Source of the DNA: Micromonospora carbonacea
GTDB lineage: Bacteria; Actinomycetota; Actinomycetes; Mycobacteriales; Micromonosporaceae
Assembly (NCBI RefSeq): GCF_014205165.1
Contig: NZ_JACHMZ010000001.1
Coordinates: 7,360,501 to 7,424,500, forward strand
Direction: 5' to 3'
Length of the DNA stretch: 64,000 bases
The position numbers were made by a program, and so were the translations under genes. The notes under the pieces are model-generated. The model did no database searches. It saw nothing but the letters and a program-made list of their open reading frames with translations, and was not told where the DNA came from. Positions 17,111-57,462 of this stretch are shown piece after piece; positions within the stretch are counted from its first letter, which is position 1, and every line of letters begins with the position of its first letter.

Positions 17111-17154
17111 CCTCACCCCGGCTGGCGGGTGGCCCTCACCCCGCGGGGTGAGGG
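17111..17154. promoter_or_regulatory. Palindrome and repeated half-site upstream of the CPBP gene
   Basis: A perfect 22-bp palindrome, CCCTCACCCCG joined to CGGGGTGAGGG, occupies 17133-17154 and overlaps the stop of the response regulator gene. Another copy of CCTCACCCCG is at 17111-17120. It could be the binding site of the adjacent response regulator or a terminator hairpin; the extra half-site favours a binding role. Confidence 0.5.
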
Positions 17155-17801
17155 GGACCGGCTAGACCGTTCTCGTAGGCGAAGATCACGACGTGTACCC
17201 GGTCACGCAGGTCGAGCTTGGTCAGGACCGCGCGTACGTGTGTCTTGACGGTGTTCTGCGTCAGGTGCAGCTGCGCGCCGATCTCGCCGTTCGACCGCCC
17301 CGCAGCGATCAGGTCGAACACCTCCCGTTCGCGGGGGGACAGCTGCGCGACCGCTTGGGGCCGGGGCTCTGCCGTCCGCCGCACGTGCTCCACCAGGGAA
17401 GCCGCCGCCGCGGGCGCCAGGGCTGAGTTGCCGGCGGCCACGTCGCAGATCGCGTCGATGAGCACCGCAGGGCGGGCATCCTTCGTCAGGTATCCGCTGG
17501 CCCCGGCGCGCAGCGCGGCCAGGACCAGCTCGTCCAGGTCGAACGTCGTCAGGGCCAGCACGCGGGTGCGCGGGCTGAGGCGCACGACCTGCGCGGTGGC
17601 GGCGATGCCGTCCAGCACCGGCATGCGGATGTCCATCAGCACCACGTCGACTGAGCGTTGCTGCACCGCCGTGACGGCGGCACGGCCGTCGGCGACTGTG
17701 CCGACCACCTCGATCCGCTCGTCGGCTCCCAGCACCGTGGCGAGCGACACGCGCAACAGGGCCTGGTCGTCGGCGAGCAGCACCCGCACCGGCGGCGTCA
17801 C
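17136..17801 (-). CDS. NarL/LuxR-type response regulator
   Basis: A 221-residue two-component regulator. The receiver domain (1-120) has the acidic pair in LLADDQALLRV, the phospho-acceptor Asp in VDVVLMDIRMP, the Thr in LALTTFD and the Lys in YLTKDARP. The C-terminal LuxR helix-turn-helix includes LSPREREVFDLIAAGRSNGE and TVKTHVRAVLTKL. It overlaps the sensor kinase gene by 4 bp (17798-17801), so the two are translated together. A palindrome behind it is a candidate binding site in front of the CPBP protease gene. Confidence 0.93.
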   Translation of the reverse strand: MTPPVRVLLADDQALLRVSLATVLGADERIEVVGTVADGRAAVTAVQQRSVDVVLMDIRMPVLDGIAATAQVVRLSPRTRVLALTTFDLDELVLAALRAGASGYLTKDARPAVLIDAICDVAAGNSALAPAAAASLVEHVRRTAEPRPQAVAQLSPREREVFDLIAAGRSNGEIGAQLHLTQNTVKTHVRAVLTKLDLRDRVHVVIFAYENGLAGPPHPAG

Positions 17802-31767: not shown

Positions 31768-32172
31768 CTACCGCACCCGCATCTGCATGACCTGCCCCTC
31801 GGGGTCGGTGCGGACCTCGAACGGGCGCTGGTCGGCGATTCCCTCCGCAGACCACGACCTGTCCACCAGCTGCGCGACCTGTCGGATCTCGATCGTCCGG
31901 TATCCGACCGAGGTGAGGTGGACCGTTATCGCCGAGGCGATGCTGACAGCGCTCGCCGGGGGACGCTGCGCCAGGAATCCGCGTGCGCGCAGCTGGAGCG
32001 CCACGGCCTTCAGCACGTCGTAGGTGAAGTTGCCGGTCACGCCAGCCAGGACGGCGTCCCGGAGGAAATCGGCGACGTCGAGCGTGTGGGCCGCCCCGGA
32101 CAGTTCCTCTTTGGCGACTCCGTCCAGCACCAGGGAGGAACCGTCATCCAGCGGAACGATCAGTTGCGTCAT
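31768..32172 (-). CDS. Hypothetical protein divergent from the CHAT gene
   Basis: A 134-residue protein starting TQLIVPLDDGSSLVLDGVA. A central segment DFLRDAVLAGVTGNFTYDVL is mildly hydrophobic, and the C-terminal half is a beta-alpha unit (SVGYRTIEIRQVAQLVDRSW) ending PFEVRTDPEGQVMQMRVR. Segments like AGVTGNFTYDVLK occur in small proteins encoded beside CHAT and STAND proteins, from general knowledge, so a link to the neighbouring module is possible. ATG at 32172 or GTG at 32178. It is 47 bp from the CHAT start, so both likely share a promoter region. Confidence 0.65.
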   Translation of the reverse strand: MTQLIVPLDDGSSLVLDGVAKEELSGAAHTLDVADFLRDAVLAGVTGNFTYDVLKAVALQLRARGFLAQRPPASAVSIASAITVHLTSVGYRTIEIRQVAQLVDRSWSAEGIADQRPFEVRTDPEGQVMQMRVR

Positions 32173-32219
32173 GCGCACATGCTGGCAGATCCGCGCACCG
32201 TGATCGTAGGGAGGACCGG

Positions 32220-35093
32220 GTGGGGGGTGGCCCCGAATCCGGGAGCGTGTGGTGGCTCGGTTTCTGGCAGACCGCCAGGCACGCCCACTGGTGGCTCAGC
32301 GCGGACGTGCGCCTGCCCGACCGCGCCGACCCCCTGGCCGTGGGCTCCATCGAGCTCGACCGGCTGACCGAGCCCCTGGCCGCTCTGGCGGCCGCGCTCC
32401 CGGGCCTCGTCGCGACGGAACGGGCGGCCCTCGTCGACGTCGACCGCCGCATCGCCGACACGCTTCCCCGGGGCGACGACCCCGCCTCGACGGCGTCCGC
32501 CATCGCGACCCGCATCGAGCTGCTCGGTGACCGGGCCGCGGTGCTCGGTGCCGCCGCACGCCGCGCCTGGACCGGCGCGATGGTCGACCCGGCCGGCAAC
32601 CTCGCGCTGTTCCGCGAGTTGGGCGGCATCCTGCTGCCGCAGGAACTCCGCGACCGGCTCAGGACGGCGCACGCAGCCGACACGACGCTCGTCGTGGCCC
32701 CCGGTCCCGGCCTGTCGGGCGTGCCGTGGGAGCTTCTCGTCGTCGACGACGACCACGACGTCCGTCTCGTCGAGCGCGCCACCGTGCTCGGTGGGGTCAG
32801 CCCGGCGATGCTGGTCAACCTGGCCAGACCGGCGTCCCGGGCCGGGGGCGGCCGGGCCGTACGGGTCGTCGACCCCACCGCGGCCGGGAGCCGCACCGGG
32901 GGCGGGCGCATCTACCCCGACGGGGTGCCCGAGGCGTGGCGCAGCCGCACCGGCGACGGCGACGCGCTGCTCGGCGCGGGCGCGGCGGGCGGCTGCTCGC
33001 CCGCGGAACTGTCCGCCGCCCTCCAGTCGCAGGAGTGGTCCCGCCTGGTGTTCGTCGGCCACGCCTCGGCCACGGACCCGGCGATGCCGACCTCGGCCGG
33101 GCTGGAGCTGGCCGGCGACGGGGAGACCGGGGACTCACGGCTCACCGCCGGGCAGTGGCTCAGGGATCCCACCCGGTGGCCCGCCCCCCGTCGGGTGGGC
33201 TTCGTCGCCTGCCAGTCCGACGACGCCGGCTACACCGAGCAGATCGGCCTCACCCTCGCGGCGTTGAACGCGGGCGCGCGTACCGTGGTCGCGACCCGCT
33301 GGAGCCTGCCGAGCGACGGTTCGGAGCGCCTGGTGGCCGGCGGGGCGCCGATCGGCTCGGCCACGACCGCGCTCGCCCTGGCCGTCGACGCGGCGCTGGG
33401 CACGACCGATCCCGTCGGGGCCATCGGCGAGTGGCAACGCGACCGGCTCGCCTGCTGGCGTTCCGCGCGCAGCGACGCCGCCCGCCGCCTGCACGCACCG
33501 CTGGTGTGGTCGGCGTTGGTCACGTACGACGTTCCCGACGCTGCGGTCAGCGCGATCCCGGGGGCCGAGGACCAGCCCGTCACGCGGCGGCCGGCGCCCG
33601 GGTCGCCACGTCACGACGCCCCCCGGGTGCCGCCCGCCGGCGACGCCGCCGAGGTCGCGAAGACCAGCCTGGCGGCCGGCGTGGCGGCGTTCGGCCGCGC
33701 CGACTGGCAGGAGGCGCGCGAGCACTACCTCGCCGCCCTCGCCGCCTTCACCGCCTGCGGCGACCTGAAGGGCGTCGCCGACGCCACGACCAACGTCGGC
33801 AACACGGCCTACTTCCTGGGCGACCTGGAGGAGGCCGCCGACCGGTACCGGACGGCGCTGCCGCTGTACCGGGACCTCGACCTCGATCGGCAGGTGGCCG
33901 TCGTCGGGCAGAACCTGGGCAACGTGTCGTTCCAGCGCGGGGAGCTCGACGTCGCCGCGGAGCAGTACCGGGCCGCCGCCGAAGCCCTGCTCAGGGGTGA
34001 CTTCCGGCGGCACGCGGCGGACACGCTGGTGAACCTGGGCGCCGTCCTGATCGAACTCGGCCGCCCGCACGTCGCCCTCGGACACCTCGACCAGGCAGGG
34101 GCCCTCTACCGGGAGACGTGTGACGAGAGCGAACTGGGCGGCAAGCTCGCCGAACTCGACCAGAACACCGGGTTGGCGCTGGCCGGGGCGAAGTCCTTCG
34201 AGCGCGCCCGCGCCCACCTGCTCTCCGCCCTGCGGCACTGGCAGAGCGACGAACCGTCGGCGGAGCGGGCCGCCCGCGCCAACCACAACCTGGGGCTCGT
34301 CGCGTTCCGCGCGGGCGACCTGCCGGAGGCACAGCTCAGGTACACCCGCGCGCTGGAGCACTTCCACACGGTCGGCAACGAGCACGAGGCGGCCGACGCC
34401 AGGCTCGGCCTGGGGACCGTCGCCCGCCACCGGGGCGACGTGCGCGCAGCCCGGTCGAACTTCCGGCAGGCACAGGAGCACTACCGCAGGACGGGGCAGT
34501 GGCTGGCCTACGCCCAGGCCGCGTTCAACGAGGGGCTGACCCATCCGGGTGACAGCGACCGGAGGTTCGATCTGCTGGCCGGCGCGTGGGCGGCGATGCA
34601 GTCGATGTCGTGGCGGCTGGCGCACGTCAGCGAGCGGGCGGCATGGCGCGCCGCCCTCGACCACGCCAACGACGAGGTCCTGGAGACGGCTCGGCTCGGT
34701 GGCCGCGACCGGCAGTTCGCCGAGCTCGTCGAGTCGCTGCGAATCGCCGGCACGCTGCGCCGCGTCGCGCCGACGCCCCTGTCTCCGACGCCCCTGACTC
34801 CGGCGAGTCAGGAGGAGGCCGACCGGGACTCGCCGTTCGTCGAGCCGCTACCGTCGATGACCCTCTCCGCCGGGCCGGTCGTGCCCTGGGCGGCCTCGTC
34901 GGCCGCCGACGAGGCGCCCTGCGATGCGCCACCGTGGATCGACTGCGGCTGGCCGCCCACGCTGGTCGACGCCGTCGCCCGCGCCGAGGAGATCGTCGCC
35001 GTCACCGGGGCGACGACCCTTCCCCTGCGCCGGGGAGCGGTGTCGCTGATCCCGCTGCTGAGCCGCCACCCGGAAGAGGAAGGACCCGGGTAA
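32220..35093 (+). CDS. CHAT-domain caspase-like protease with tetratricopeptide repeats
   Basis: A 957-residue cytosolic protein. Residues about 110-440 form a CHAT (caspase HetF-associated) domain with the His in VFVGHAS (H281) and the Cys in FVACQSDDAGY (C331), the expected catalytic dyad. Residues about 480-800 are a run of TPRs (DWQEAREHYLAALAAFTACG, LEEAADRYRTALPLYRDLD, LPEAQLRYTRALEHFHTVG, each followed by a second helix). The last 100 residues are Pro/Ala rich, then WPPTLVDAVARAEE. CHAT-TPR proteins are protease effectors in several bacterial conflict and death pathways. GTG start with GGGAGGA 4 nt upstream. It leads a likely three-gene operon. Confidence 0.88.
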   Translation: MGGGPESGSVWWLGFWQTARHAHWWLSADVRLPDRADPLAVGSIELDRLTEPLAALAAALPGLVATERAALVDVDRRIADTLPRGDDPASTASAIATRIELLGDRAAVLGAAARRAWTGAMVDPAGNLALFRELGGILLPQELRDRLRTAHAADTTLVVAPGPGLSGVPWELLVVDDDHDVRLVERATVLGGVSPAMLVNLARPASRAGGGRAVRVVDPTAAGSRTGGGRIYPDGVPEAWRSRTGDGDALLGAGAAGGCSPAELSAALQSQEWSRLVFVGHASATDPAMPTSAGLELAGDGETGDSRLTAGQWLRDPTRWPAPRRVGFVACQSDDAGYTEQIGLTLAALNAGARTVVATRWSLPSDGSERLVAGGAPIGSATTALALAVDAALGTTDPVGAIGEWQRDRLACWRSARSDAARRLHAPLVWSALVTYDVPDAAVSAIPGAEDQPVTRRPAPGSPRHDAPRVPPAGDAAEVAKTSLAAGVAAFGRADWQEAREHYLAALAAFTACGDLKGVADATTNVGNTAYFLGDLEEAADRYRTALPLYRDLDLDRQVAVVGQNLGNVSFQRGELDVAAEQYRAAAEALLRGDFRRHAADTLVNLGAVLIELGRPHVALGHLDQAGALYRETCDESELGGKLAELDQNTGLALAGAKSFERARAHLLSALRHWQSDEPSAERAARANHNLGLVAFRAGDLPEAQLRYTRALEHFHTVGNEHEAADARLGLGTVARHRGDVRAARSNFRQAQEHYRRTGQWLAYAQAAFNEGLTHPGDSDRRFDLLAGAWAAMQSMSWRLAHVSERAAWRAALDHANDEVLETARLGGRDRQFAELVESLRIAGTLRRVAPTPLSPTPLTPASQEEADRDSPFVEPLPSMTLSAGPVVPWAASSAADEAPCDAPPWIDCGWPPTLVDAVARAEEIVAVTGATTLPLRRGAVSLIPLLSRHPEEEGPG

Positions 35094-35153
35094 ACCGACC
35101 GGGCACCGGGCAGCACGGGCACGGATGCCGACTAGACCACGGAGGACCACCCC

Positions 35154-35591
35154 ATGTTTCCACTCGAACTGTCGCAGCAGGCCAAGGGCACGCCCGTGGA
35201 GACCCTGCACCGCATCGTCGGGGCGGTCGGCCTCGTGATCACCGTGCAGGGCTCCGGCGATCTCGGGCGGATCGTCGGCGACCTGGTGACGGTCGCGCCC
35301 CGCCTCGCCGAGGACCACGAGGTCAGAGCCGACGGCCTGATCGTGAGCCGCGTGGGGCTCTACCGCGTCTTCTGGGGCGCGCTCAAGTGGCCCGGCGGAA
35401 GCCTGGCCATCCTGGCCCCGCTCTCCCTGCACGACAGACAGGAGGTCAGCGAGTGGACCCGGCACTTCATGAGGGAGGTGCTCGATCCGATCCGGACCCT
35501 GTCGCAGCAGGGCTACTCCGTCGGTGGTGGCGGCAACGGCATGGTGACCGAAGAGGGCTTCTGCCGCGCCTTCCAGCAGGCGTACGTCTAG
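35154..35591 (+). CDS. Hypothetical protein of the CHAT locus
   Basis: A 145-residue protein with no family recognised. It has mixed alpha/beta character (HRIVGAVGLVITVQGSGDLG, GLIVSRVGLYRVFWGALKW), a basic/acidic middle, and a Gly-rich stretch GYSVGGGGNGMVTEEG before the C-terminal helix. No transmembrane segment is convincing. The ATG has GGAGGA 7 nt upstream. It begins 60 bp after the CHAT gene and 52 bp before the TPR-like gene, all on the same strand. It could be the substrate, inhibitor or adaptor of the protease; this is speculation from position. Confidence 0.7.
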   Translation: MFPLELSQQAKGTPVETLHRIVGAVGLVITVQGSGDLGRIVGDLVTVAPRLAEDHEVRADGLIVSRVGLYRVFWGALKWPGGSLAILAPLSLHDRQEVSEWTRHFMREVLDPIRTLSQQGYSVGGGGNGMVTEEGFCRAFQQAYV

Positions 35592-35643
35592 CGCTTCGGC
35601 CGGGTACGACGCCACCGGCTACCTGATGCGGTGGGAGAGCCGG

Positions 35644-37176
35644 ATGCCGCTGATCGCCGCGGCGGCGGCCGGCGAGGAGCGCGCGACCCGCCCGATGGCG
35701 CTGACGGTCCAGTCGCCGGAGAAGGGGGCCGGCGGGTGGGGGCTGCCCGACGCGTTCCGGCGGATCATCGCCGGCCAACACGACGAGAGCGCCCTCGTCA
35801 GCGGCCTGAACCCGGCCGACGCCGCCGTGGTCCGCCGGGCGCTCGCGGCGATCGCCTGGCACACAAAGGTGACCGGGGCCGCCACGGAGGCCGAGCGGTT
35901 CGCGTTGACCGAGGCGGATCTGCGGGCGGCGACCGACGAGGGGGACCGGCTGCGGGCCGGTACGCGCGCAGCCGAGCTCAGCGGGCTGCTTCGCGCGCGG
36001 CAGGAGTTCACGGCCGCCCTGCGGTACGCGGACGACGCCATCGCACACGAACGGCGGGTCGGATTCGGGCCGTGGCGGCAGCGGTTCAACCTCGGCCGCC
36101 GGCTGCAACTCGTCGCGGACCTGGGACGCCCGGAGGAGGTCCTCGCGGCGTTGGAACCGCTGCGGCCGCAGCTGCGGGGGGAGCCGGACCTGCCCACCCC
36201 GGCGGATCCGGCCAACCCGTCGGTCGTGCGGGAGAACCTGCTCACGCTCGGCCAGCAGGCCGCCCTGGCCCTGGGGCGCTGGGAGCTGGCGCTGGGCTTC
36301 CACGAGGACCGGGCGGCCAGCGCGGAGCTGCGCGGGGCGGACGCCGCCGAGCTGGCGGAGCTCCGGCTGGACCGGGTCAGGTGCCTGATCGGCCTCGGGC
36401 GGCCGGCGGAGGCGCGCTCGCAGCTCGACGAGATCCGGCCGCTGCTGCGCGGGGACGATCCGGCGCTGGCGGTCGAGGTCGCGTCGTACGACGCGACGCT
36501 GGCCGGCGGGACGACGAAGGCCGCGGAGGCGCTGGCCGAGGCGTACCGGCGGTTGTCCGGTGGCGGCCTCGACCCGAGGCTGGTCGCGCGGCAGCACGTC
36601 GTGCTCGGCCAGCGGCTCGGCCAGGAGGGCGAGCCGGCCGGGGAGGCGGCCCACCTGCTCGCGGCGGCGCTCATCTGCGCGCGCGTCGGCGACCGGGACA
36701 CGGCCGCCCTGACGGTCCGCCACGCCGCGCCGCACCTCTACCAGGCGGACGGCACCCGGCTCGCGGTCACCCTGCCGATGCTCGTGGCCGAGATCGAACG
36801 TGTGCCCGGCGTGCGGTTCGGGCACCTGGTCACCCGGGTGATCGGCACGCCGGACGGTGCGACCGACCGGCTGGCCGCGGCGGTGCGGGCGGCGTACGCC
36901 ATCCCGTTGACCGAGCTGTTCGCGTTCGACCGGCTGGTGGCCGACCTGGAGGACGAGATCGCCGTGGTGGTCGCGGCGGCCACCCGAGGGGAGGGGGACC
37001 GGGCGGCCGTCGAGGCGACCCTCGCCGGGCTGGCCGGCGTGCCGGACATGGTGCCACTCGTGGCGGCCCTGCGCCGGGCCGCCGCCGGTGACCTGCCCTC
37101 GGAGTCCGAGCAGCAGGCGATGCACCCGGTGCACGCCGCCGTCCTGGCCGAGGTCCGGGCCCGGCTCGGCTGTTGA
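35644..37176 (+). CDS. TPR-like helical protein of the CHAT locus
   Basis: A 510-residue all-helical protein with degenerate tetratricopeptide-like pairs (EFTAALRYADDAIAHERRVG, ALALGRWELALGFHEDRAAS, RCLIGLGRPAEARSQLDEIR). The N-terminal 80 residues and C-terminal 130 residues look like separate helical domains (FAFDRLVADLEDEIAVVVAA). No enzyme motif. The start is set to ATG 35644 because GGGAGAG lies 5 nt upstream; ATG 35626 in frame has none. As the third gene behind the CHAT protease it is likely a scaffold or sensor of the same system. Confidence 0.72.
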   Translation: MPLIAAAAAGEERATRPMALTVQSPEKGAGGWGLPDAFRRIIAGQHDESALVSGLNPADAAVVRRALAAIAWHTKVTGAATEAERFALTEADLRAATDEGDRLRAGTRAAELSGLLRARQEFTAALRYADDAIAHERRVGFGPWRQRFNLGRRLQLVADLGRPEEVLAALEPLRPQLRGEPDLPTPADPANPSVVRENLLTLGQQAALALGRWELALGFHEDRAASAELRGADAAELAELRLDRVRCLIGLGRPAEARSQLDEIRPLLRGDDPALAVEVASYDATLAGGTTKAAEALAEAYRRLSGGGLDPRLVARQHVVLGQRLGQEGEPAGEAAHLLAAALICARVGDRDTAALTVRHAAPHLYQADGTRLAVTLPMLVAEIERVPGVRFGHLVTRVIGTPDGATDRLAAAVRAAYAIPLTELFAFDRLVADLEDEIAVVVAAATRGEGDRAAVEATLAGLAGVPDMVPLVAALRRAAAGDLPSESEQQAMHPVHAAVLAEVRARLGC

Positions 37177-37187
37177 TCGACGGGGGT

Positions 37188-37221
37188 CGGTGCGCACGGG
37201 CCCGGTGACCGTCGCGCACCG
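37188..37221 (+). terminator. Hairpin behind the CHAT locus
   Basis: An 8-bp stem (CGGTGCGC with GCGCACCG) and an 18-nt loop start 12 bp after the stop of the TPR-like gene. It separates the CHAT module from the terpenoid genes. The loop is long, so this is a weak call. Confidence 0.4.
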
Positions 37222-37433
37222 GCGGCGGGCGTGTTCCGACCGGGACGTTTGAAGGATCCGCGACCGCAGCCGTCGTCAGGGGTGTCCGGTCCGACCGCAT
37301 GGGTGGCCCGAGCGGGAGGGACGGCGTCGTGCGCCCGGACACCGCCGGGCCGCCACCGTACGGGCCGACGCGGAGCGCCCCTGCCGCGTGCCGGCAGGTG
37401 CCGGTGCCCCACCGCTGACGAGGATGGACGAGC

Positions 37434-40172
37434 GTGACCAACATGCTGTCGGTCTCCGAGACCGAGCCGGGGTGCCTGCCGAGCATCTCGGCGGCGCTGG
37501 CGGCGGCCGGCCGCACCGCCACGATCGTTGTTCGGCCGGGCACGTACCGGGAGCAGGTGCGCCTCACCGGAGACGTCACGGTGGTGGCCGAGGACGGCCC
37601 GGGAACGGTGACCATCGACGGTGGGGACGGGGTGGCGGTCCTGGTCGGCGGGGGAGAGCCGACGCTTCGCGGGCTCACGGTGCGCGGCGGTTCCGCCACC
37701 CGACCGGCGGTGCAGGTCGGGGGCGGCACGCTGCGGGCGACCGGGTGCGCGATCACCGGCCGGGGCTCCGCCGCGGTCCACGTGCCGGGTGGGCAGGTGG
37801 ACCTGCGCGACTGCCAGGTGGGCAACCCGGGCGGCGACGGTTTCCGGTTCGAGCGCGGCGGTGGCGGCACGGTCAGCGCCACCACGGTCCGGGGCGCGCA
37901 CAACGGGGTGGTGATCGCCGACGGCGCGGACCCGGTCCTGCGCGGCTGTGCCCTCGTCGATCTCCGCGGCGTGGGCGTGCTGTCGACCGGCGGCGGACGG
38001 GGCACGCTGGAGGACTGCGAGATCCGCGCGGTCGGTGGGCACGCGATCGTCGTCTCCGGGACCGCCGACCCGCTGTTCCGTCGCTGCGCGGTGCGTGGTG
38101 CCGCCGGCTACGGCCTGCTGCTGAGCGAGCAGGCCACCGGCACCTTCGCCGACGGCACGATCGTCGACGCCGGGGCGGCTGCCGTCGTGGTCACCGGCTC
38201 GGCCGCGCCGCTGATCGACGGGGGCGAGGTCGCCGGCGGGCCGGGTGGGGCACTGTTGTTCCAGGGCGAGGCGACGGGGGTGCTGCGCCGGTTGACCGTG
38301 CGCGGCGGGCCCGCCGGGATCGTGGTCGGCGGGTCGGCCGCGCCGCTGATCGAGGACTGCGTGGTGGAGGGGGCCGGCGAGTACGGCGTGCAACTGCTCG
38401 ATCAGGCCCGGCCCGTGGTCCACGGGACCCGGGTGCAGCGGTGCGTGGCCGGTGGGTTCCTGGTCGAAGCCGGGGCGACGCTCACCGTGGACCAGTCGAC
38501 GGTGCGGGACTGCGGACTCGGGTTGCAGCTCGACGGCGCGGCGACGGTGACCGGGTCGGACGTCGGCGCCGCCCACGGCGCCGGCATCCTGGTGCAGCCC
38601 GGGGCGCACCTGACCCTGCTGCGCAGCCGGGTGCACCACAGCGGCGGGCCGGGGGTCTGGTTCACCGCCGGATCGTCGGGGCGGGTGAACGGCTGTGAGC
38701 TGGTCGAGAACGCGGGGGAGGGGCTGCTGCGGGACGGCGCCGCACCGGTCCGGGTGGACGCGACCACGATGGTCGGCAACGGTGGCACGCCCGTCGGCGC
38801 GCAGCACCCCCCGCCACCGCAGGACGTCCCGGAGGCGCCCGGAGCCTGGCCGCTACTCGGCCACATCGTGCCCATGCTCCGGCAACCGCTGGGCTTCCTG
38901 CCCGGCCTGGCCAGGCACGGGGACGTCGTCCGGGTGCGCTTCGGCCGGCTCCCCGTCTACGTCGTCACCCACCCCGACGCCGTACGCGACGTGCTGGTGC
39001 CGGGGGACGTCGACTTCGAGCGCGGGATCTGTTTCGACCGGCTGGAGCCCGGGCTCGGCCAGGGGATCGCGACGGCGTCCGGCGTCGAGCACCGCCGGCT
39101 GCGCCGGCTGCTCCAGCCCGTGTTCAGCCGGGAACGCCTCGCCGGATACTCGTCGATCATGCGGACCGTGGCCGAGGAGACGACCGCGGCCTGGCGTGAC
39201 GGCCAGGAGCTTGCCGCCGACGAGGTCATGGACGACCTGGCGCTGGCCGCGCTCACCCGGAGCCTGTTCAGGTTCACCCCGGACGCCGAGACCGCCGAGG
39301 CCGTCAAGCACGGCATGCGGATGCTCACCCACGGTCTGCTCCAGCGCATCGTGCTGCCTGCGGAGTGGGAGCGGGTACCCACCTTCGGCAACATCCGGTT
39401 CCGGCGTGCGATGGCCCGGATGAACCGGGCCGTCGGCCAGGTCGTCACCGCCTACCGCCAGGCCGGCGAGGACCGGGGCGATGTGCTCTCCGCGCTGCTC
39501 ATGACACGTGACGAGGGCGGCGTCGGCCTGTCCGACCAGGAGGTGCACGCCCAGGTGGCGACGCTGGCGTTGACCGGCGTGGAGGCCCCCGGAGCGACGC
39601 TGGCCTGGCTGCTGTACGAGATCGGACGCAGCGCCGAGGTCACCGGCCGGGTCTGCGCCGAACTCGACGAGGTGCTCGGCGGCCGGACGCCGGAGCACGA
39701 CGACCTGCCCGCGCTGGAGTACACCGGCCGGGTCGTCGACGAGGTGCTGCGGCTGCACACGCCCCTGCTCTTCTCCCGCCGCACGGTGACCACGGCCAGG
39801 GTGGGCCGGTCGATCATCCCGCCCGGCGCGGAACTCGTCTACAGCCCGTACCTGCTGCACCACGACGACCGCTGGTTTCCCGACCCGGCCCGGTTCGATC
39901 CGGACAGGTGGCTCCCGGCGAACGCGCGGCAGGTCCCCAAGGGGGCCTACATCCCGTTCGCGGCCGGCTCCTTCCAGTGCATCGGCCGGCAGTTCGCGAT
40001 CTCCGAACTCGTCATGATCACGGCGGTGATCTTCAGTCGCTGGACGCTGCGACCGGTGCCGGGCGCAGCCGTGCGTGAGGTCGCCAGCGCCCTCGTGCGC
40101 CCCAGTGAGCTGCCGATGACCGTCCACCTGCGGGGCGGCGGCGAACGGCCCACCCCGGCCGGGCCGCGATGA
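37434..40172 (+). CDS. Fusion of a right-handed parallel beta-helix domain and a cytochrome P450
   Basis: A 912-residue protein. Residues 1-460 are a pectate-lyase-like beta-helix: SISAALAAAGRTATIVVRPG at the start, then about 20 coils with GG, AAPLI and VxGGxxGxxV turns (GSAAPLIEDCVVEGAGEYGV). A Pro-rich hinge (AQHPPPPQDVPEAPG) leads to a P450 (about 475-900). It has WPLLGH, I-helix TGVEAPGATLAW (Thr of the usual AGxET replaced by Ala), ExxR in DEVLRLHTP, and heme loop FAAGSFQCIGR with C849. The family normally hydroxylates small molecules. Beta-helix domains of this look are known fused to AAA ATPases in actinomycetes; fusion to P450 is, to my knowledge, rare. It overlaps the terpene synthase gene by ATGA, so it probably oxidises its product. 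Confidence 0.88.
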   Translation: MTNMLSVSETEPGCLPSISAALAAAGRTATIVVRPGTYREQVRLTGDVTVVAEDGPGTVTIDGGDGVAVLVGGGEPTLRGLTVRGGSATRPAVQVGGGTLRATGCAITGRGSAAVHVPGGQVDLRDCQVGNPGGDGFRFERGGGGTVSATTVRGAHNGVVIADGADPVLRGCALVDLRGVGVLSTGGGRGTLEDCEIRAVGGHAIVVSGTADPLFRRCAVRGAAGYGLLLSEQATGTFADGTIVDAGAAAVVVTGSAAPLIDGGEVAGGPGGALLFQGEATGVLRRLTVRGGPAGIVVGGSAAPLIEDCVVEGAGEYGVQLLDQARPVVHGTRVQRCVAGGFLVEAGATLTVDQSTVRDCGLGLQLDGAATVTGSDVGAAHGAGILVQPGAHLTLLRSRVHHSGGPGVWFTAGSSGRVNGCELVENAGEGLLRDGAAPVRVDATTMVGNGGTPVGAQHPPPPQDVPEAPGAWPLLGHIVPMLRQPLGFLPGLARHGDVVRVRFGRLPVYVVTHPDAVRDVLVPGDVDFERGICFDRLEPGLGQGIATASGVEHRRLRRLLQPVFSRERLAGYSSIMRTVAEETTAAWRDGQELAADEVMDDLALAALTRSLFRFTPDAETAEAVKHGMRMLTHGLLQRIVLPAEWERVPTFGNIRFRRAMARMNRAVGQVVTAYRQAGEDRGDVLSALLMTRDEGGVGLSDQEVHAQVATLALTGVEAPGATLAWLLYEIGRSAEVTGRVCAELDEVLGGRTPEHDDLPALEYTGRVVDEVLRLHTPLLFSRRTVTTARVGRSIIPPGAELVYSPYLLHHDDRWFPDPARFDPDRWLPANARQVPKGAYIPFAAGSFQCIGRQFAISELVMITAVIFSRWTLRPVPGAAVREVASALVRPSELPMTVHLRGGGERPTPAGPR

Positions 40173-41191
40173 ACACCTACCGCGCCGCGGACCTGAGCCT
40201 GCCCTTCGCGCGGGCCGTCCATCCCTGGTCGGGCCGGGCGCAGGAGTCGACGGAGTCGTGGGCGCGCCGCTGTGGCCTGCTGCGCTCGCCGGAGGCGGTC
40301 GCCGCGTTCCGCGCGCTGGGCTACGGCCGGCTCATGTCGACGCTCTGCCCGTACGCCCCGTTCGACGGGCTGTCCCTGGTCACCGACTGGAACAGCCTCT
40401 TCTTCGTCACCGACGACCAGCAGAACGTCGCGTGCGCCACCGGCCGGGCCGACCGGTACGAGGAACTCGTGGCCAGCATGCGGCGGATCGTCGGCGGCGA
40501 CGTCCGGCCCACGGCACACGACCGCCATCCCCTCGTGGTCGCGCTGCGCGACCTCCTGCGCCGCTCGCTGCCGGGCCGTCCCGGCCACTGGGTCGCCCGG
40601 TTCCGGCGGCACCTCGAACGGTGGCTCGACGGCCACCTGCGGGAGAACGCCCACCGCACCGGCGGCACCGTGCCCGGCCCGGACGAGTACGTCCTGCTGC
40701 GGCGGGACGCGTCGACCGTGCTGCCCACCCTCGATCTCGTGGAGCTGGTGGAGGGCGCCGAGGTGCCGGAGCGGCTCTACCTCTCGCCGCAGTACCAGAC
40801 GTTGGTGCTCGGCACCGCGGACGTCATGTGCTGGGTCAACGACATCCACTCGTGGCACATGGAGAGGGGTGACCCGATGAACCTCGTCACGGTCCTGGAC
40901 CGTCACCTGGGGCTCGGCACGCAGCGGGCCGTCGACGCGGTCGCGGCCCGTGTCGCCGGCCGGGTGGCCGAACTCCTCGCCGCGACCAGGAGCCTTCCGG
41001 CGGCGATGGACGAGCTGGGCGTCCCCGCAGCGGACCAGGGGGCCGTCCTGCGTTGCGTGCGGGACCAGCAGTCCTGGGCCGCGAGCATGGAGACCTGGGA
41101 CCGCACCGACACCATCCGCTTCGCCGACGCCGGTTCTCCCGGCGCGGGCCGGGTCGCCCCCTACGTCGAGGACCTCCTCCCCGACACGTAG
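40169..41191 (+). CDS. Class I terpene synthase
   Basis: A 340-residue bacterial terpene cyclase. The metal motif near residue 82 is a variant (TDDQQN: D82, D83, N86 for DDxxD). The NSE triad is intact: NDIHSWHME (N224, S228, E232). An Arg-Arg pair at 178-179 sits 46 residues before it, where the pyrophosphate sensor is expected. The C-terminal RY pair reads RF (DTIRFAD). It converts a linear prenyl diphosphate (probably farnesyl or geranyl; not decidable) to a cyclic terpene. Its start overlaps the stop of the beta-helix-P450 gene, and a second P450 lies 95 bp downstream: a compact terpenoid operon. Confidence 0.88.
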   Translation: MNTYRAADLSLPFARAVHPWSGRAQESTESWARRCGLLRSPEAVAAFRALGYGRLMSTLCPYAPFDGLSLVTDWNSLFFVTDDQQNVACATGRADRYEELVASMRRIVGGDVRPTAHDRHPLVVALRDLLRRSLPGRPGHWVARFRRHLERWLDGHLRENAHRTGGTVPGPDEYVLLRRDASTVLPTLDLVELVEGAEVPERLYLSPQYQTLVLGTADVMCWVNDIHSWHMERGDPMNLVTVLDRHLGLGTQRAVDAVAARVAGRVAELLAATRSLPAAMDELGVPAADQGAVLRCVRDQQSWAASMETWDRTDTIRFADAGSPGAGRVAPYVEDLLPDT

Positions 41192-41286
41192 GCGGGCCGC
41201 GAGCCGGACCGCCGGTCCCCACGCGACGCGTCCACCGGTCGTGGACGAGCGCGTGGCACACCACACCCGCCGACGATTGGACCCCC

Positions 41287-42645
41287 ATGGCCATGCCGTT
41301 GTCCCGCGAGGCCCCCGACGCTCCCGGCCGGCTGCCGCTGCTCGGGCACTCCCTGTCGCTGCTGCGACGTGACCGCCTCGGCTACGTCACGGGCCTGCGG
41401 GCGGTCGGTGACGCGTGCTGGGTCCGATTCGGCGCCCGCCGGTTCCTGGTGCTCAACGCGCCGGAGTTGGTGCACGCCGTCCTGGTGGAGCAGGGCAGGC
41501 ACTTCGACCGGGGCCGCATCTTCGACAAGGCCCGGCCGTACGTCGGCGAGGGGCTGTACACCGCGGAGGGCGCCGAACACCACCGGCAGCGTCGCATGGT
41601 GCAGCCGGCCTTCGGCTCCGCCGAGGTCGGGCGGTACACCGCGGTCATCCACGACGTGACCCGGGAGCAGGTCGCCGCCTGGCCGACCCACGGCACCGTC
41701 AACATCGAGCGCGCGATGCACGATCTGCACAGCGAGATCATCGGCCGGACGATGTTTCGCGCGCCGCAGGCCCGGCAGGTGGTCCAGGCCGCCCGCGACG
41801 AACTGCCCACTCTCGTACGGGGGCTCGGCGTGCGTACCCTCATGCCCGACGTCTTCGCCCGCGTGCCCGTCCCGGTGAACCGCCGCTACGACGCCGCCTG
41901 CGCCCGGGTGCGCGGCGCGTGCGACCGGCTCGTGGCGGCCCACCGCGAGATCCACGGGGACCTCGGCGACTTCGTGTCGATGCTCGTCCGCGCCCGGGAC
42001 GCCCGGACCGGGGTCACGATGTCGGACACCGAGATCCGGGACCACGTCATGACCCTGTTGATCTCCGCGATCGAGACCCCGGCCACCGTGCTCGCCTGGG
42101 CGTTGTACGAGGTCGCCCGGAATCCCGAGCTGCGCGACGGGCTGGAGCGGGAGGTCGCCGAGGTCGGCGGCGCGCAGGGGCGCGTCATCGAGGTCGACGA
42201 CCTGCCCCGGCTGCGCCTCACCGACGCCGTGGTCCACGAGGCCCTCCGCCTCCACCATCCGTTGTGGATGCTGATGCGGCGGGCCGTCCGTCCCGTGACC
42301 GTCGGGGGCGTCGACATCCCGGCGGGCGGTGAGGTGATCTACAGTCCGGCGGCCATGCACCGGGACCCCGCCGTGTTCCCCGACCCGTTGCGGTTCGACC
42401 CGCGTCGGTGGCTCGACGGGGCGGCGACCCCGGCCATGCGGCGGGCGTTCGTGCCCTTCAGCCTGGGCAACCGGCAGTGCCTCGGCGACAGGTTCGCCTG
42501 GAACCAGATGAAGACCACCCTCGCCGCGATCGTGGGCGGATGCCGCCTCGCGTTGCCCGACGGCTTCCGGGCGAGGACGGTGGTGAGCAGCATCGTTCAT
42601 CTTGAGCGCCTGCCGATGGTCGTGCAGCCGCGGAAGCCGTGGTGA
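41287..42645 (+). CDS. Cytochrome P450 of the terpenoid cluster
   Basis: A 452-residue monooxygenase with a eukaryote-like Pro-rich hinge (APGRLPLLGHSLSLLRRDRL) matching that of the fused P450 (PGAWPLLGHIVPMLRQPL), so the two are paralogues. I-helix LLISAIETPATVLAW keeps the Glu-Thr pair, ExxR is HEALRLHHP, and the heme loop is FSLGNRQCLGDRF (C398). Relatives from memory include sesquiterpene oxidases such as CYP170. ATG 41287, with a second ATG 6 nt on; weak ribosome site. It is last in the operon and probably makes a later oxidation. Confidence 0.92.
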   Translation: MAMPLSREAPDAPGRLPLLGHSLSLLRRDRLGYVTGLRAVGDACWVRFGARRFLVLNAPELVHAVLVEQGRHFDRGRIFDKARPYVGEGLYTAEGAEHHRQRRMVQPAFGSAEVGRYTAVIHDVTREQVAAWPTHGTVNIERAMHDLHSEIIGRTMFRAPQARQVVQAARDELPTLVRGLGVRTLMPDVFARVPVPVNRRYDAACARVRGACDRLVAAHREIHGDLGDFVSMLVRARDARTGVTMSDTEIRDHVMTLLISAIETPATVLAWALYEVARNPELRDGLEREVAEVGGAQGRVIEVDDLPRLRLTDAVVHEALRLHHPLWMLMRRAVRPVTVGGVDIPAGGEVIYSPAAMHRDPAVFPDPLRFDPRRWLDGAATPAMRRAFVPFSLGNRQCLGDRFAWNQMKTTLAAIVGGCRLALPDGFRARTVVSSIVHLERLPMVVQPRKPW

Positions 42646-42700: not shown

Positions 42701-44200
42701 TCATCGTGGCGGGCCGAAGTGCCGGGCGAGCGCGGCGCGCAGCGTGTCGGTGTCGCCGGCGGACCAGGCGACGAAGCAGTCGGGGCGCACGAGCAGCGCG
42801 GTCGCGGTCGTGCCCTCCAGCGGGCCGGCGACCACGTCGACCCGGTCGCGCCACCCGGCGGCGGTCTCCGCGTGGGCCCCCGTGGAGTCCAGCAGCAGCG
42901 GCCGGGCGGCGTGGGTCAGCTCGGCGAGGCGGGTCGGCCCGTGCGCGCCGTGCACGACCACGTCGGGGGCGTAGCGGCCAGCCAACGGGTCGGCCGGGTC
43001 GGCGGGGTAGCGGGTGTCCGCGCCGGACATCAACGCCGCGATGTGCCCGGTCACCTCCGGCATGCGGAGCAGCTCGGCGAAGAGTTGCCGCAGGCCGGTG
43101 ATCTCGTCGCCGGGGCCGGTGAGCGCCGACTGCGCCTGGGTGGACATGACGACCCGCTCGGCGACGGGTCGACGCTCGGTCTCGTACGTGTCGAGCAGGC
43201 CCGGCGGTGCCCAGCCGAGGACCGTGGCGGCGAGCTTCCAGCCCAGGTTGACGGCGTCCTGGAGGCCCAGGTTGAGGCCGGGACCGCCGATGGCGGGGTG
43301 CACGTGCGCGGCGTCGCCGAGCAGGAGCACCCGGTCGGCGCGGTAGCGGGCGGCGATCCGGGTGTTGCGACCGGTCAGCCGCCGCAGCAGGCCGGGGCCC
43401 TCGGCAGGGCCGAAGGGGACGTCCGCGCCGAGCACCCGGGCGACGCTGGCGCGCAGCTCCGCCAGGTCCATCGGGGTCTCGTCGTCCGTCGGCGCGTCGG
43501 GCCACTCCGTCGTGGTCAGGAGCGCCGGGCGGCCGGGGAACGGGGCCCAGGCGATCAGGCCGCGCGGGGTGCGGGTGTGCTGGAACGGCGGCACGACGCC
43601 GTACCCGGGGACACGCAGGCCGCCGGTCGCGGGGTCGAGGAAGGACGCGGGGACGGCCACGGTCGCGGTGCGGGAGGTCGACCGGTCGTCGGTGACGCCG
43701 GGGAAGTCGATGCCGACGAGACGGCGCACCGTGCTGCGGCCGCCGTCGGCGCCGACGAGGAACCGGGCGGTGAGCTGCGTACCGTCGGCGAGGTGGACCT
43801 CGACCGCGTCGGGCCGTTGGCGGAGGTCGACGACGTCGTGGCCGTGGCGCAGTTCGACCCCGAGCTCGGCGGCCCGGGCGGCCAGGGTGGCCTGGAGCTG
43901 GGCCTGCGGCACGCCGAGCACGTAGTGCGGGTTGTCGGCGAGCACCGTGAGGTCCAGCGGGAACGCGCCGAAGGTGAAGGCCGGCTGCGGAGCCGGCGGG
44001 GTGTTCCCGCCGCTGAGCCGGGTGTAGAGGCCACGCCGGTCGAGCAGGCGGACGACCTGGCCGACGAGGCCGTTGGCGCGGGGCTCGCCCCCGAGCGTGT
44101 CACGGCGTTCGAGGACGACGGGGCGGAGGCCGGCGAGGGCCAGTTCGCAGGCGAGCATGAGGCCGTTGGGGCCGGCTCCGGCGATGAGGACGTCGATCAT
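42701..44200 (-). CDS. FAD-dependent aromatic monooxygenase (PheA/TfdB, rifampicin/tetracycline-type)
   Basis: A 499-residue class A flavoprotein hydroxylase. GAGPNGLMLACELALAG is the Rossmann FAD loop, LVGADGGRSTVRRLVGIDF is the DG motif and GDAAHVHPAIGGPGLNLG is the second FAD motif. A thioredoxin-like C-terminal tail (VVVHGAHGPTRLAEL...) follows as in the PheA/TfdB group. It adds oxygen to a phenolic or polyketide substrate; several relatives inactivate antibiotics. Start ATG 44200 with GAAGGGA upstream. The TetR gene is 131 bp upstream on the same strand, so it is probably its regulator. Convergent with the P450. Confidence 0.9.
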   Translation of the reverse strand: MIDVLIAGAGPNGLMLACELALAGLRPVVLERRDTLGGEPRANGLVGQVVRLLDRRGLYTRLSGGNTPPAPQPAFTFGAFPLDLTVLADNPHYVLGVPQAQLQATLAARAAELGVELRHGHDVVDLRQRPDAVEVHLADGTQLTARFLVGADGGRSTVRRLVGIDFPGVTDDRSTSRTATVAVPASFLDPATGGLRVPGYGVVPPFQHTRTPRGLIAWAPFPGRPALLTTTEWPDAPTDDETPMDLAELRASVARVLGADVPFGPAEGPGLLRRLTGRNTRIAARYRADRVLLLGDAAHVHPAIGGPGLNLGLQDAVNLGWKLAATVLGWAPPGLLDTYETERRPVAERVVMSTQAQSALTGPGDEITGLRQLFAELLRMPEVTGHIAALMSGADTRYPADPADPLAGRYAPDVVVHGAHGPTRLAELTHAARPLLLDSTGAHAETAAGWRDRVDVVAGPLEGTTATALLVRPDCFVAWSAGDTDTLRAALARHFGPPR

Positions 44201-44331
44201 GATCGTGGTCCCTTCGGGGGTGCGCGTCGTCGCCACGACGGGCGCGGCGCAGTGCCGGCCCGCCGCGGAGCTGTGACGCGGCTGAGGCGTGGGTTTGACG
44301 GGGTGGAACTGTGGCTCGGGCGGGCCGGGCT

Positions 44332-44952
44332 TCAGCGGGGCGGCGTCGGGAGGCCGGCGGCGACCTGGGTGAAGGCGTCGGTGATGAGGCGCTCGATCGG
44401 GGTGGGCGGGTCGGCGCTGTCGAGGTAGTGCTGCATGGCGACGGCGACGGCGGCGCTGGCGGCGGCCGCGACGAGCCGTGGGTACATGTCGGTGGTGAGG
44501 TCGGTGCCGGTGCGCTCGGCGACGGCGGCGGCCAGCCCGGCCTCGGCGATCGCGGCGGCGCGCAGCCGCTCGCCCTGGAGCGCGGGCTCGGCGAGCATGG
44601 TCCGCACGCCGGCCACCCACTGCGCATGGGCGGGGGACGGCATCGCCTCGACCTCGGGGCCGGGCGTGAACTGTTCCAGCGCCGCCGCGGTGAGCGCCGC
44701 CCAGAGCGGCTCGTCGGCGGGGCGTTCGCGTAGCGCGGCGGCGGTGCGCAGGCTGCGGTCGAGGTGGCGGGAGGCGATCGCCTCCGCCTTGCTGGAGAAG
44801 TAGTTGTTGAAGGTGCGCGGGGAAACGCCGGCCGCCTCGGCGATGTCCTCGACGCGGACGTTGTCGTAGCCGCGCTCGGCGGTGAGGCGGATAGCTGCCC
44901 AGCCGAGCGCCGCCCGCGTCTCGGCCTTCTTGCGCTCCCGCAGCCCTGTCAT
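44332..44952 (-). CDS. TetR/AcrR-family repressor
   Basis: A 206-residue regulator with the helix-turn-helix in VRVEDIAEAAGVSPRTFNNY and the typical FxxYF(S)SK continuation. The ligand domain is Ala-rich and helical. Two palindromes (44972-45002) lie 20-50 bp upstream of its ATG, so it most likely represses itself and the FAD monooxygenase gene downstream. The ligand may be the monooxygenase substrate. Confidence 0.9.
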   Translation of the reverse strand: MTGLRERKKAETRAALGWAAIRLTAERGYDNVRVEDIAEAAGVSPRTFNNYFSSKAEAIASRHLDRSLRTAAALRERPADEPLWAALTAAALEQFTPGPEVEAMPSPAHAQWVAGVRTMLAEPALQGERLRAAAIAEAGLAAAVAERTGTDLTTDMYPRLVAAAASAAVAVAMQHYLDSADPPTPIERLITDAFTQVAAGLPTPPR

Positions 44953-55939: not shown

Positions 55940-56022
55940 TAACATACCTGACGCGGCTGTTAACGGTCACATTGTCGGACCACCACCAATTTCGAGCCGC
56001 CGTCCCATCAGGAGGATGCCTT

Positions 56023-57462
56023 ATGGCAAGATCCAAAGCGACCAATGTCGGCGTGTTGTCCGCCGGCGTCGCGTTGTTGGCTTCGGCGACGGTCGCCGTG
56101 GCCTTGCCGGCCAACGCCGCAGCCGCCGGCTGTTCGGTGACCTATGCCGTGTCGTCCCAGTGGGGGGAGGGCTTCGGCGCCAACGTGTCGATCACGAACC
56201 TGGGCGACCCGGTGAGCAGCTGGACGCTGACGTGGTCCTACGGCGCGGGCCAGACGGTCACGCAGGCGTGGAACGCGACGGTCACCCAGAGCGGCGCCGC
56301 GGTCACCGCGAAGAACGTGAGCTACAACGGGTCGATCGCGACCAACGCCTCGGTGTCGTTCGGCTTCAACGGGTCCTGGTCGGGCAGCAACCCGGCGCCG
56401 ACGAGCTTCGCCCTGAACGGCGTGGCGTGCAACGGCGGCACGACCCCCACGACCCCGCCGACGACGCCCCCGACCAACCCGCCGACGACCCCGCCCCCCA
56501 CGACGCCCCCGCCGACGACGCCCCCGCCGACCACCCCGCCGGCCTCCTGCGCGCTGCCGACGTCCTACCGGTGGTCGTCGACCGGCCCGCTGGCGCAGCC
56601 GAAGGCCGGCTGGGCGTCACTGAAGGACTTCACCATCGCCCCCTACCAGGGCAAGCAGTTGGTGTACGCCACCACCCACAGCAGCAGCGCCACCGGCGGC
56701 TGGGGTTCGATGAACTTCGGCCTGGTCGACAACCTCAACCAGCTCGGCTCGGCCCCCCAGAACACCATGAGCCAGAGCACCGTGGCGCCGTCGCTGTTCT
56801 ACTTCGCGCCGAAGAACATCTGGGTGCTGGCCTACCAGTGGGGCGGGACGGCGTTCTCCTACCGCACGTCGACCAACCCGGCCAACGCCAACGGGTGGTC
56901 GGCCCCGCAGACGCTGTCGACTGCGGCGATCACCGGCTCCGGCACCGGGCCGATCGACCAGACGATCATCGGCGACGACCAGAACATGTACCTGTTCTTC
57001 GCCGGCGACAACGGCAAGATCTACCGCCAGATCATGCCGATCGGGAACTTCCCGGGCAGCTTCGGCTCCAGCTACACGACCATCATGAGCGACACCTCGG
57101 AGAACATCTTCGAGGCGCCGCAGGTCTACAAGGTGCAGGGCCGCAACCAGTACCTGATGATCATCGAGGCCAGGACCAGCTCCTGGGAGCGCTACTTCCG
57201 CTCGTTCACGGCGACCAGCCTGAGCGGCACCTGGACGCCGAACGCGACGACCTACAACAACCCGTTCGCGGGCAAGGCCAACAGCGGCGCCACCTGGACC
57301 AACGACATCAGCCACGGCGAACTGCTGCGCACCAGCGCGGATCAGACGAACACGATCGACCCGTGCAACTTGCAGCTGCTGTACCAAGGCCGCGCCACCA
57401 ACTCGGGCGGCGACTACGGCCTCCTGCCGTACCGGCCGGGCCTGCTGACCCTGCAACGCTGA
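56023..57462 (+). CDS. Secreted CBM2-GH62 alpha-L-arabinofuranosidase
   Basis: A 479-residue exported enzyme that removes arabinose from arabinoxylan. After the signal peptide (ends ANAAAAG), a CBM2 (about 36-135) has [17 protein letters not shown] and [12 protein letters not shown]-rich linker ([15 protein letters not shown]) joins it to the GH62 five-bladed propeller. Visible motifs are [20 protein letters not shown] (Asp base), [31 protein letters not shown] (Glu acid) and [15 protein letters not shown] 56023 with GGAGG 7 nt upstream. A near-perfect CebR box precedes it and a hairpin follows. Confidence 0.93.

Follow-up and report, generated by a model that had tools for sequence, protein, structure and literature searches.

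A 64,000-nucleotide stretch of the Micromonospora carbonacea genome (positions 7,360,501 to 7,424,500 of contig NZ_JACHMZ010000001.1; hereafter the window) contains a gene that joins a beta-helix domain to a complete cytochrome P450, and a terpene synthase and a second P450 follow directly behind it. We consider it reasonably likely that this gene (37434..40172, plus strand) arose recently, within this lineage and probably in place, as a chimera of a beta-helix/AAA ATPase operon and a terpene cassette. We read it as a chimera because its beta-helix matches the front half of the ATPases, because the cassette occurs unfused elsewhere, and because the DNA upstream holds probable scars of the older operon.

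The fusion gene is a single open frame of 912 codons with a GTG start. In its 912-residue product, the Beta_helix (E 2e-34, best stretch 98-235) and NosD (E 1.1e-10, best stretch 263-386) profiles of Pfam fall in one half and the p450 profile (E 3.2e-59, residues 466-885) in the other. AlphaFold2 places strands across residues 1-447 and a P450-like helical part thereafter, with a mean predicted local distance difference test (pLDDT) score of 93; only the segments 450-460 and 903-912 score below 50. By these predictions, residues 1-450 (37434..38783, plus strand) are a right-handed beta-helix, which scores a pLDDT of 95.8 and a predicted template modelling (pTM) score of 0.91 when modelled alone, and a full P450 starts at about residue 464. 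Profile, homology and alignment place this P450, here called P450A, at residues 464-912 (38823..40172, plus strand), and a Pro-rich linker of residues 451-463 (38784..38822, plus strand) lies between the two. The full-chain model has a pTM of 0.57, which leaves the two domains without a defined position relative to each other. P450A carries the ExxR motif (EVLR, residue 770) and a Cys haem loop from residue 842; together with profile and fold, these mark it as a cytochrome P450, with predicted haem binding and monooxygenase activity. An earlier note, made from the sequence alone, had described one frame of 912 codons running from about 20 beta-helix coils into a full P450 with both motifs, and the open frame, Pfam and the structure prediction, the last two being checks that it had proposed, agree with it.

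First, the beta-helix has a clear set of relatives. Tandem AAA proteins encoded at nine loci in other Micromonospora genomes have a front half that matches it at 50-70% identity. The closest comes from M. zingiberis, whose EccA/SpoVK-like protein (P0003) shares the beta-helix from its N-terminus as far as the linker at 69% identity. In these ATPases, found in Micromonospora and Actinoplanes, two AAA modules come after the beta-helix, whereas the window has a P450 there. The statement in the earlier note that actinomycete beta-helix fusions usually join AAA ATPases was right, and it proved to be the key to reading the gene. In the M. zingiberis protein, the AAA half scores above the NCBIfam cut-offs of EccA of type VII secretion (474.0 versus 466.65 bits) and SpoVK (523.8 versus 422.95 bits) and below that of CbbX (427.7 versus 459.25 bits). 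Searched against the window, the AAA half gave nothing significant, its two hits having E 0.07 (13 residues, at the beta-helix end) and E 0.09. AAA genes of 40-65% identity persist elsewhere in the genome, the best of them (65%) beside a beta-helix paralogue at 2.31 Mb that is 33-39% identical to the fusion beta-helix, and the first gene of the ATPase operon also has relatives elsewhere in the genome (44% and 35%). The ATPase loci have further features of their own. In six of them (L040, L042, L043, L045, L046 and L048), the beta-helix/AAA gene overlaps a preceding gene of 820-1200 amino acids; the four such genes searched (L040, L042, L045 and L046) gave no Pfam match. Eight of the nine have a conserved gene of about 385 amino acids upstream, likewise lacking a Pfam match in the single case searched, and six of the nine carry a sigma-factor-like gene downstream. 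We read this gene set as an operon with an EccA-like ATPase.

Second, the P450 half belongs to a cassette that exists without the beta-helix. In the window, the stop of the fusion gene overlaps the ATG of the terpene synthase gene (40169..41191, plus strand; 340 amino acids) by ATGA at 40169, just as previously noted, and the second P450, P450B (41287..42645, plus strand), comes next as an open frame ending at 42645; its first open codon is at 41053, relatives suggest a start near 41287, and our searches with it were run from 41251. The same three genes occur in unfused form at three of three Amycolatopsis-type loci (L052, L053 and L054), with the order and the shared strand preserved and with similarly close or overlapping spacing. 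These loci come from two genomes of one genus; one of these genomes (G1033) has the cassette twice, as L053 and L054. Identities to the window are 73-75% for P450A, 60-65% for the synthase and 61-64% for P450B, and the window shares both the gene order on one strand and the EAPGA-type I-helix of P450A that is seen in the aligned relatives. The unfused P450A has no beta-helix and begins shortly before a PEAPGAWP motif. In one of the three loci (L054), the cassette is followed by a gene for a short-chain dehydrogenase. By gene content, then, the cassette does not need the beta-helix, since all three loci fetched lack it, and the idea that the fusion itself defines a new biosynthetic arrangement finds no support.

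Relatives of the cassette are scattered. For the P450 half, 32 clusters of unfused P450s show 60-75% identity, with members named from Amycolatopsis, Kutzneria, Nonomuraea, Spongiactinospora, Streptomyces, Actinomadura, Nocardia and the myxobacterium Pendulispora; one relative of 60-65% identity (P0015) leaves the P450 family before the haem Cys, perhaps through a frameshift or deletion. Synthase relatives are mostly 58-67% identical and come from a partly overlapping set of genera, and 19 of the 32 P450A-like clusters match one of 47 synthase-like clusters in the exact size of the longest contig, an indirect sign of linkage. Within the family, 18 of 354 genomes matched the synthase at E 1e-25 and none beyond the genome itself held a close one, the next best among the other 353 having 34% identity (E 6.6e-39). 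Even samples of the order (397 genomes, E 1e-60) and the class (394 genomes, E 1e-50) returned a close synthase from the own genome only, and one further genus had it in 2 of 80 genomes, at three loci. Fifty plasmid records with synthase relatives were all below 60% identity (best listed, 39%), and the viral contigs searched held no P450A relative. Considering this distribution, the cassette was likely gained horizontally.

Third, the junction and the DNA before the gene bear traces of how the pieces met. In a blastn search with 38651-38900, homology to beta-helix DNA mostly stops at about 38785, at the latest at 38799, and homology to the cassette starts at about 38823; both domains are therefore whole, with a short linker between them. 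Upstream, three candidate scars lie in a row on the plus strand. Scar 1 (37244..37293) is a stretch of 50 bases resembling DNA that precedes the first gene of the M. zingiberis operon by about 98 to 50 bases (L039, 4706-4754). The match has 84% identity and E 1.9e-8, and its local score is 56, whereas the highest among 500 dinucleotide shuffles was 35. Scar 2 (37335..37362) may retain codons of that first gene (RPDTAGPPPY in the window, QPDTELPPPY in L039). Scar 3 (37363..37433), some 70 bases long, resembles the end of the gene that immediately precedes beta-helix/AAA genes; homology starts at 37363 in five of nine relatives (L039, L040, L042, L043 and L048) and near the start codon in the other four. 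Read together, the scars suggest an operon eroded by deletions while its upstream region and the beta-helix survived. No promoter consensus was found at 37150-37460, which says little for this genus.

Several observations weigh against such a formation in place. Scar 1 was seen in M. zingiberis only and is unclear in the other seven upstream regions compared. Scar 2 is weak: its score of 31 was reached by 2 of 1000 shuffles, and its best match falls in the same part of the first gene in three of eight loci (L039, L040 and L043) and elsewhere in five, one of which (L045) scores higher, at 35. This means that the piece could have been moved. In addition, there was no wider synteny between the window and the ATPase loci beyond the beta-helix itself in 20 further stretches of four genomes (398.8 kb) and the nine earlier ones, so that the claim of formation in place rests on the scars. 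That comparison took window genes from a GC-frame rule and kept hits at E 1e-15, above 45% identity and over more than 40% of the query; apart from the beta-helix, two scattered hits remained, at 17136-17801 (48%) and 55972-57462 (71%).

We propose the following course of events. An ancestral Micromonospora would have held an accessory operon with a beta-helix/AAA ATPase. The P450A-synthase-P450B cassette, probably from another lineage, would then have joined in frame behind the beta-helix, most likely by chance capture. The AAA half would have been lost, and deletion of the upstream genes may have left the short scars and brought the upstream region of the old operon near the fusion, where it may now drive the cassette. 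This order of events and the horizontal gain are the arrangement that we find best fits the relatives and the scars. The beta-helix would supply the translation start and otherwise be a tolerated or weakly useful N-terminal appendage.

The fusion is also present in other records. It occurs again under the name M. carbonacea at 97% identity (P0001, six members on two contigs) and under Micromonospora haikouensis at 86% identity (P0002, 955 amino acids). A sequencing or assembly error that joins two genes, raised in advance as a way to undo the finding, is thus unlikely, because the same fusion is held under two species names. The protein-cluster search, another check proposed earlier, scored the 7994 candidates sharing most words, and P0001 and P0002 are the only two among the 71 clusters listed that have both Pfam domains. 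This search also returned long P450 proteins with glycosyltransferase domains (Nocardia, Tsukamurella) or reductase domains; as here, the P450 is part of a longer chain, but no beta-helix domain is listed for them. In the genus, 160 of 160 genomes gave some match to the fusion protein, and among the matches listed only that of the genome itself spanned from the beta-helix start through the P450; a few P450 matches in other genomes extended back to residues 363-405. The fusion thus appears real, rare and adjacent to a terpene synthase and a second P450, as was claimed at the outset. A beta-helix/P450 fusion was not found in the open-licence literature searched, and the parts of PMC10055836 and PMC12860625 that were covered do not describe the cassette.

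The rate of change of the beta-helix bears on whether it is a passenger or has acquired a role. In three-sequence estimates with four outgroups, the ratio of non-synonymous to synonymous substitution rates (dN/dS, omega) of the beta-helix was 0.50-0.61 on the window branch against 0.18-0.22 on the ATPase-linked M. zingiberis branch; it was higher on the window branch in 98.5-100% of bootstraps across the four outgroups, the upper 95% limits for that branch lying between 0.83 and 1.07. Two control pairs had values of 0.20-0.39. The window branch mixes time before and after fusion, and dN/dS alone is thus compatible with neutrality after it. Between the window and P0002, the beta-helix is 89.2% identical (396/444), the P450 92.2% (403/437; Fisher p 0.13) and the synthase 87-88%, and the linker, identical at 10 of 16 positions, is less conserved than the beta-helix (p 0.006). 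That the beta-helix is kept no worse than the synthase counts against its being a mere passenger. Against P0001, it has changed at 16 of 444 positions and the P450 at 6 of 437, the beta-helix being faster (p 0.05). The window beta-helix also lacks 45 residues, about two coils, that are present in P0002 and in two ATPase relatives aligned. Of 137 residues invariant in nine ATPase-type beta-helices, it keeps 127; leave-one-out retention spans 90-99% among the nine and 90-93% in the window copy. From these comparisons, we read the constraint on the beta-helix as relaxed, not absent.

We also weighed other readings. It is possible, though in our judgement unlikely, that the beta-helix has a new job and docks P450A to the synthase, P450B, a redox partner or itself, easing the handling of a hydrophobic product. 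For this speak the two halves remaining open under two species names, the near-equal conservation of beta-helix and P450 relative to P0002, above that of the linker and no less than that of the synthase, and the retained invariant residues; but the cassette dispenses with the beta-helix in all three loci elsewhere, the omega values of the two branches differ roughly 2.3- to 3.4-fold, the sister branch having the lower, the beta-helix outpaces the P450 in the comparison with P0001, two coils were lost in the window lineage, and the pTM of 0.57 gives no fixed domain contact. Retention of the old binding activity, which would bring the P450 to a former partner such as another AAA ATPase of this kind encoded elsewhere, seems to us very improbable: the conserved residues and the AAA genes of 40-65% identity would allow it, but the former partner is itself putative, and of the rest of the old operon the locus holds no more than the scars. 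Slightly less probable again is translation from an internal start at Met446 (38769), an in-frame ATG just ahead of the linker that would give a nearly free P450 and leave the full chimera a minor product; the two ATPase relatives aligned have this Met as well, at the end of their beta-helix, so it is not necessarily an initiation site. Terpene binding or surface anchoring, both suggested in the earlier note, gained no support: by eye (no dedicated tool was run) the fusion protein shows no signal sequence, and the 50 structural matches listed for the beta-helix comprise diverse beta-helix proteins, with 8-16% identity. We return to the chimera whose beta-helix is tolerated or weakly useful.

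As for its chemistry, the synthase is of class I (PF19086, E 2.2e-40), with an Asp-rich DDQQN motif and an NDxxSxxxE motif, NDIHSWHME. An acid is usual where DDQQN has Asn; among 18 aligned synthases, 15 have DDQQN and the rest DDQQD, ADQQN or DDIQD. The best NCBIfam match of the synthase, isoafricanol synthase, falls far short of its cut-off (170.5 versus 500 bits), and so do the P450 matches to pentalenene oxygenase (NF045812, 350.5 versus 800 bits) and albaflavenone monooxygenase (NF051859, 330.6 versus 700 bits). Pentalenene oxygenase, CYP170A1 (albaflavenone) and CYP184A1 are the best profile, sequence or structure matches, yet they are different enzymes; CYP184A1 and CYP170A1 rank first by structure, at 28-32% identity in the structural alignments. 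The synthase would cyclise a prenyl diphosphate, likely farnesyl diphosphate, and both P450s may oxidise its product with outside redox partners; for P450A, this is the most likely role. The I-helix of P450A reads TGVEAPGAT from residue 714, with Ala at the usual Thr position. The residue is as first noted, but the suggestion of altered oxygen chemistry tied to the fusion does not hold, since Ala occurs in 22 of 22 unfused close relatives aligned (against 1 of 23 more distant P450s, 20 of which have Thr); shared by this whole unfused set, it is uninformative on the fusion, and we rejected a fusion-specific chemistry.

Two groups of neighbouring genes flank these features. Past P450B by 55 bases, and convergent with the cassette, lie genes for a flavin adenine dinucleotide (FAD) monooxygenase resembling aromatic-ring hydroxylases and a TetR-type regulator (42701-44952). 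Just upstream of the scars, 32220-37176 holds in a row a 957-residue CHAT domain protein with tetratricopeptide repeats, a 145-residue frame and a 516-residue frame, beside a 136-residue frame on the opposite strand (31768-32178). This row may be a signalling or conflict system in its own right; in the comparison with the beta-helix/AAA loci, none of its genes had relatives that were kept.

Known P450 fusions mostly add redox partners; unlike these, the fusion described here adds to a P450 a solenoid from an unrelated system. As the unfused cassette, the ATPase donor relatives and the probable scars are all readable, the effect of a captured domain on an enzyme can be asked directly. The locus also draws attention to a terpene cassette, as yet uncharacterised, in which the first P450 is without the I-helix Thr and which has relatives in several actinobacterial genera and in Pendulispora. 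A bolder reading, which we hold only tentatively and regard as improbable, is that a solenoid once serving an AAA ATPase was recruited within one genus as a built-in scaffold uniting the synthase and both P450s. If true, this would be a natural domain capture caught soon after the event, with the scars of the donor operon still readable.

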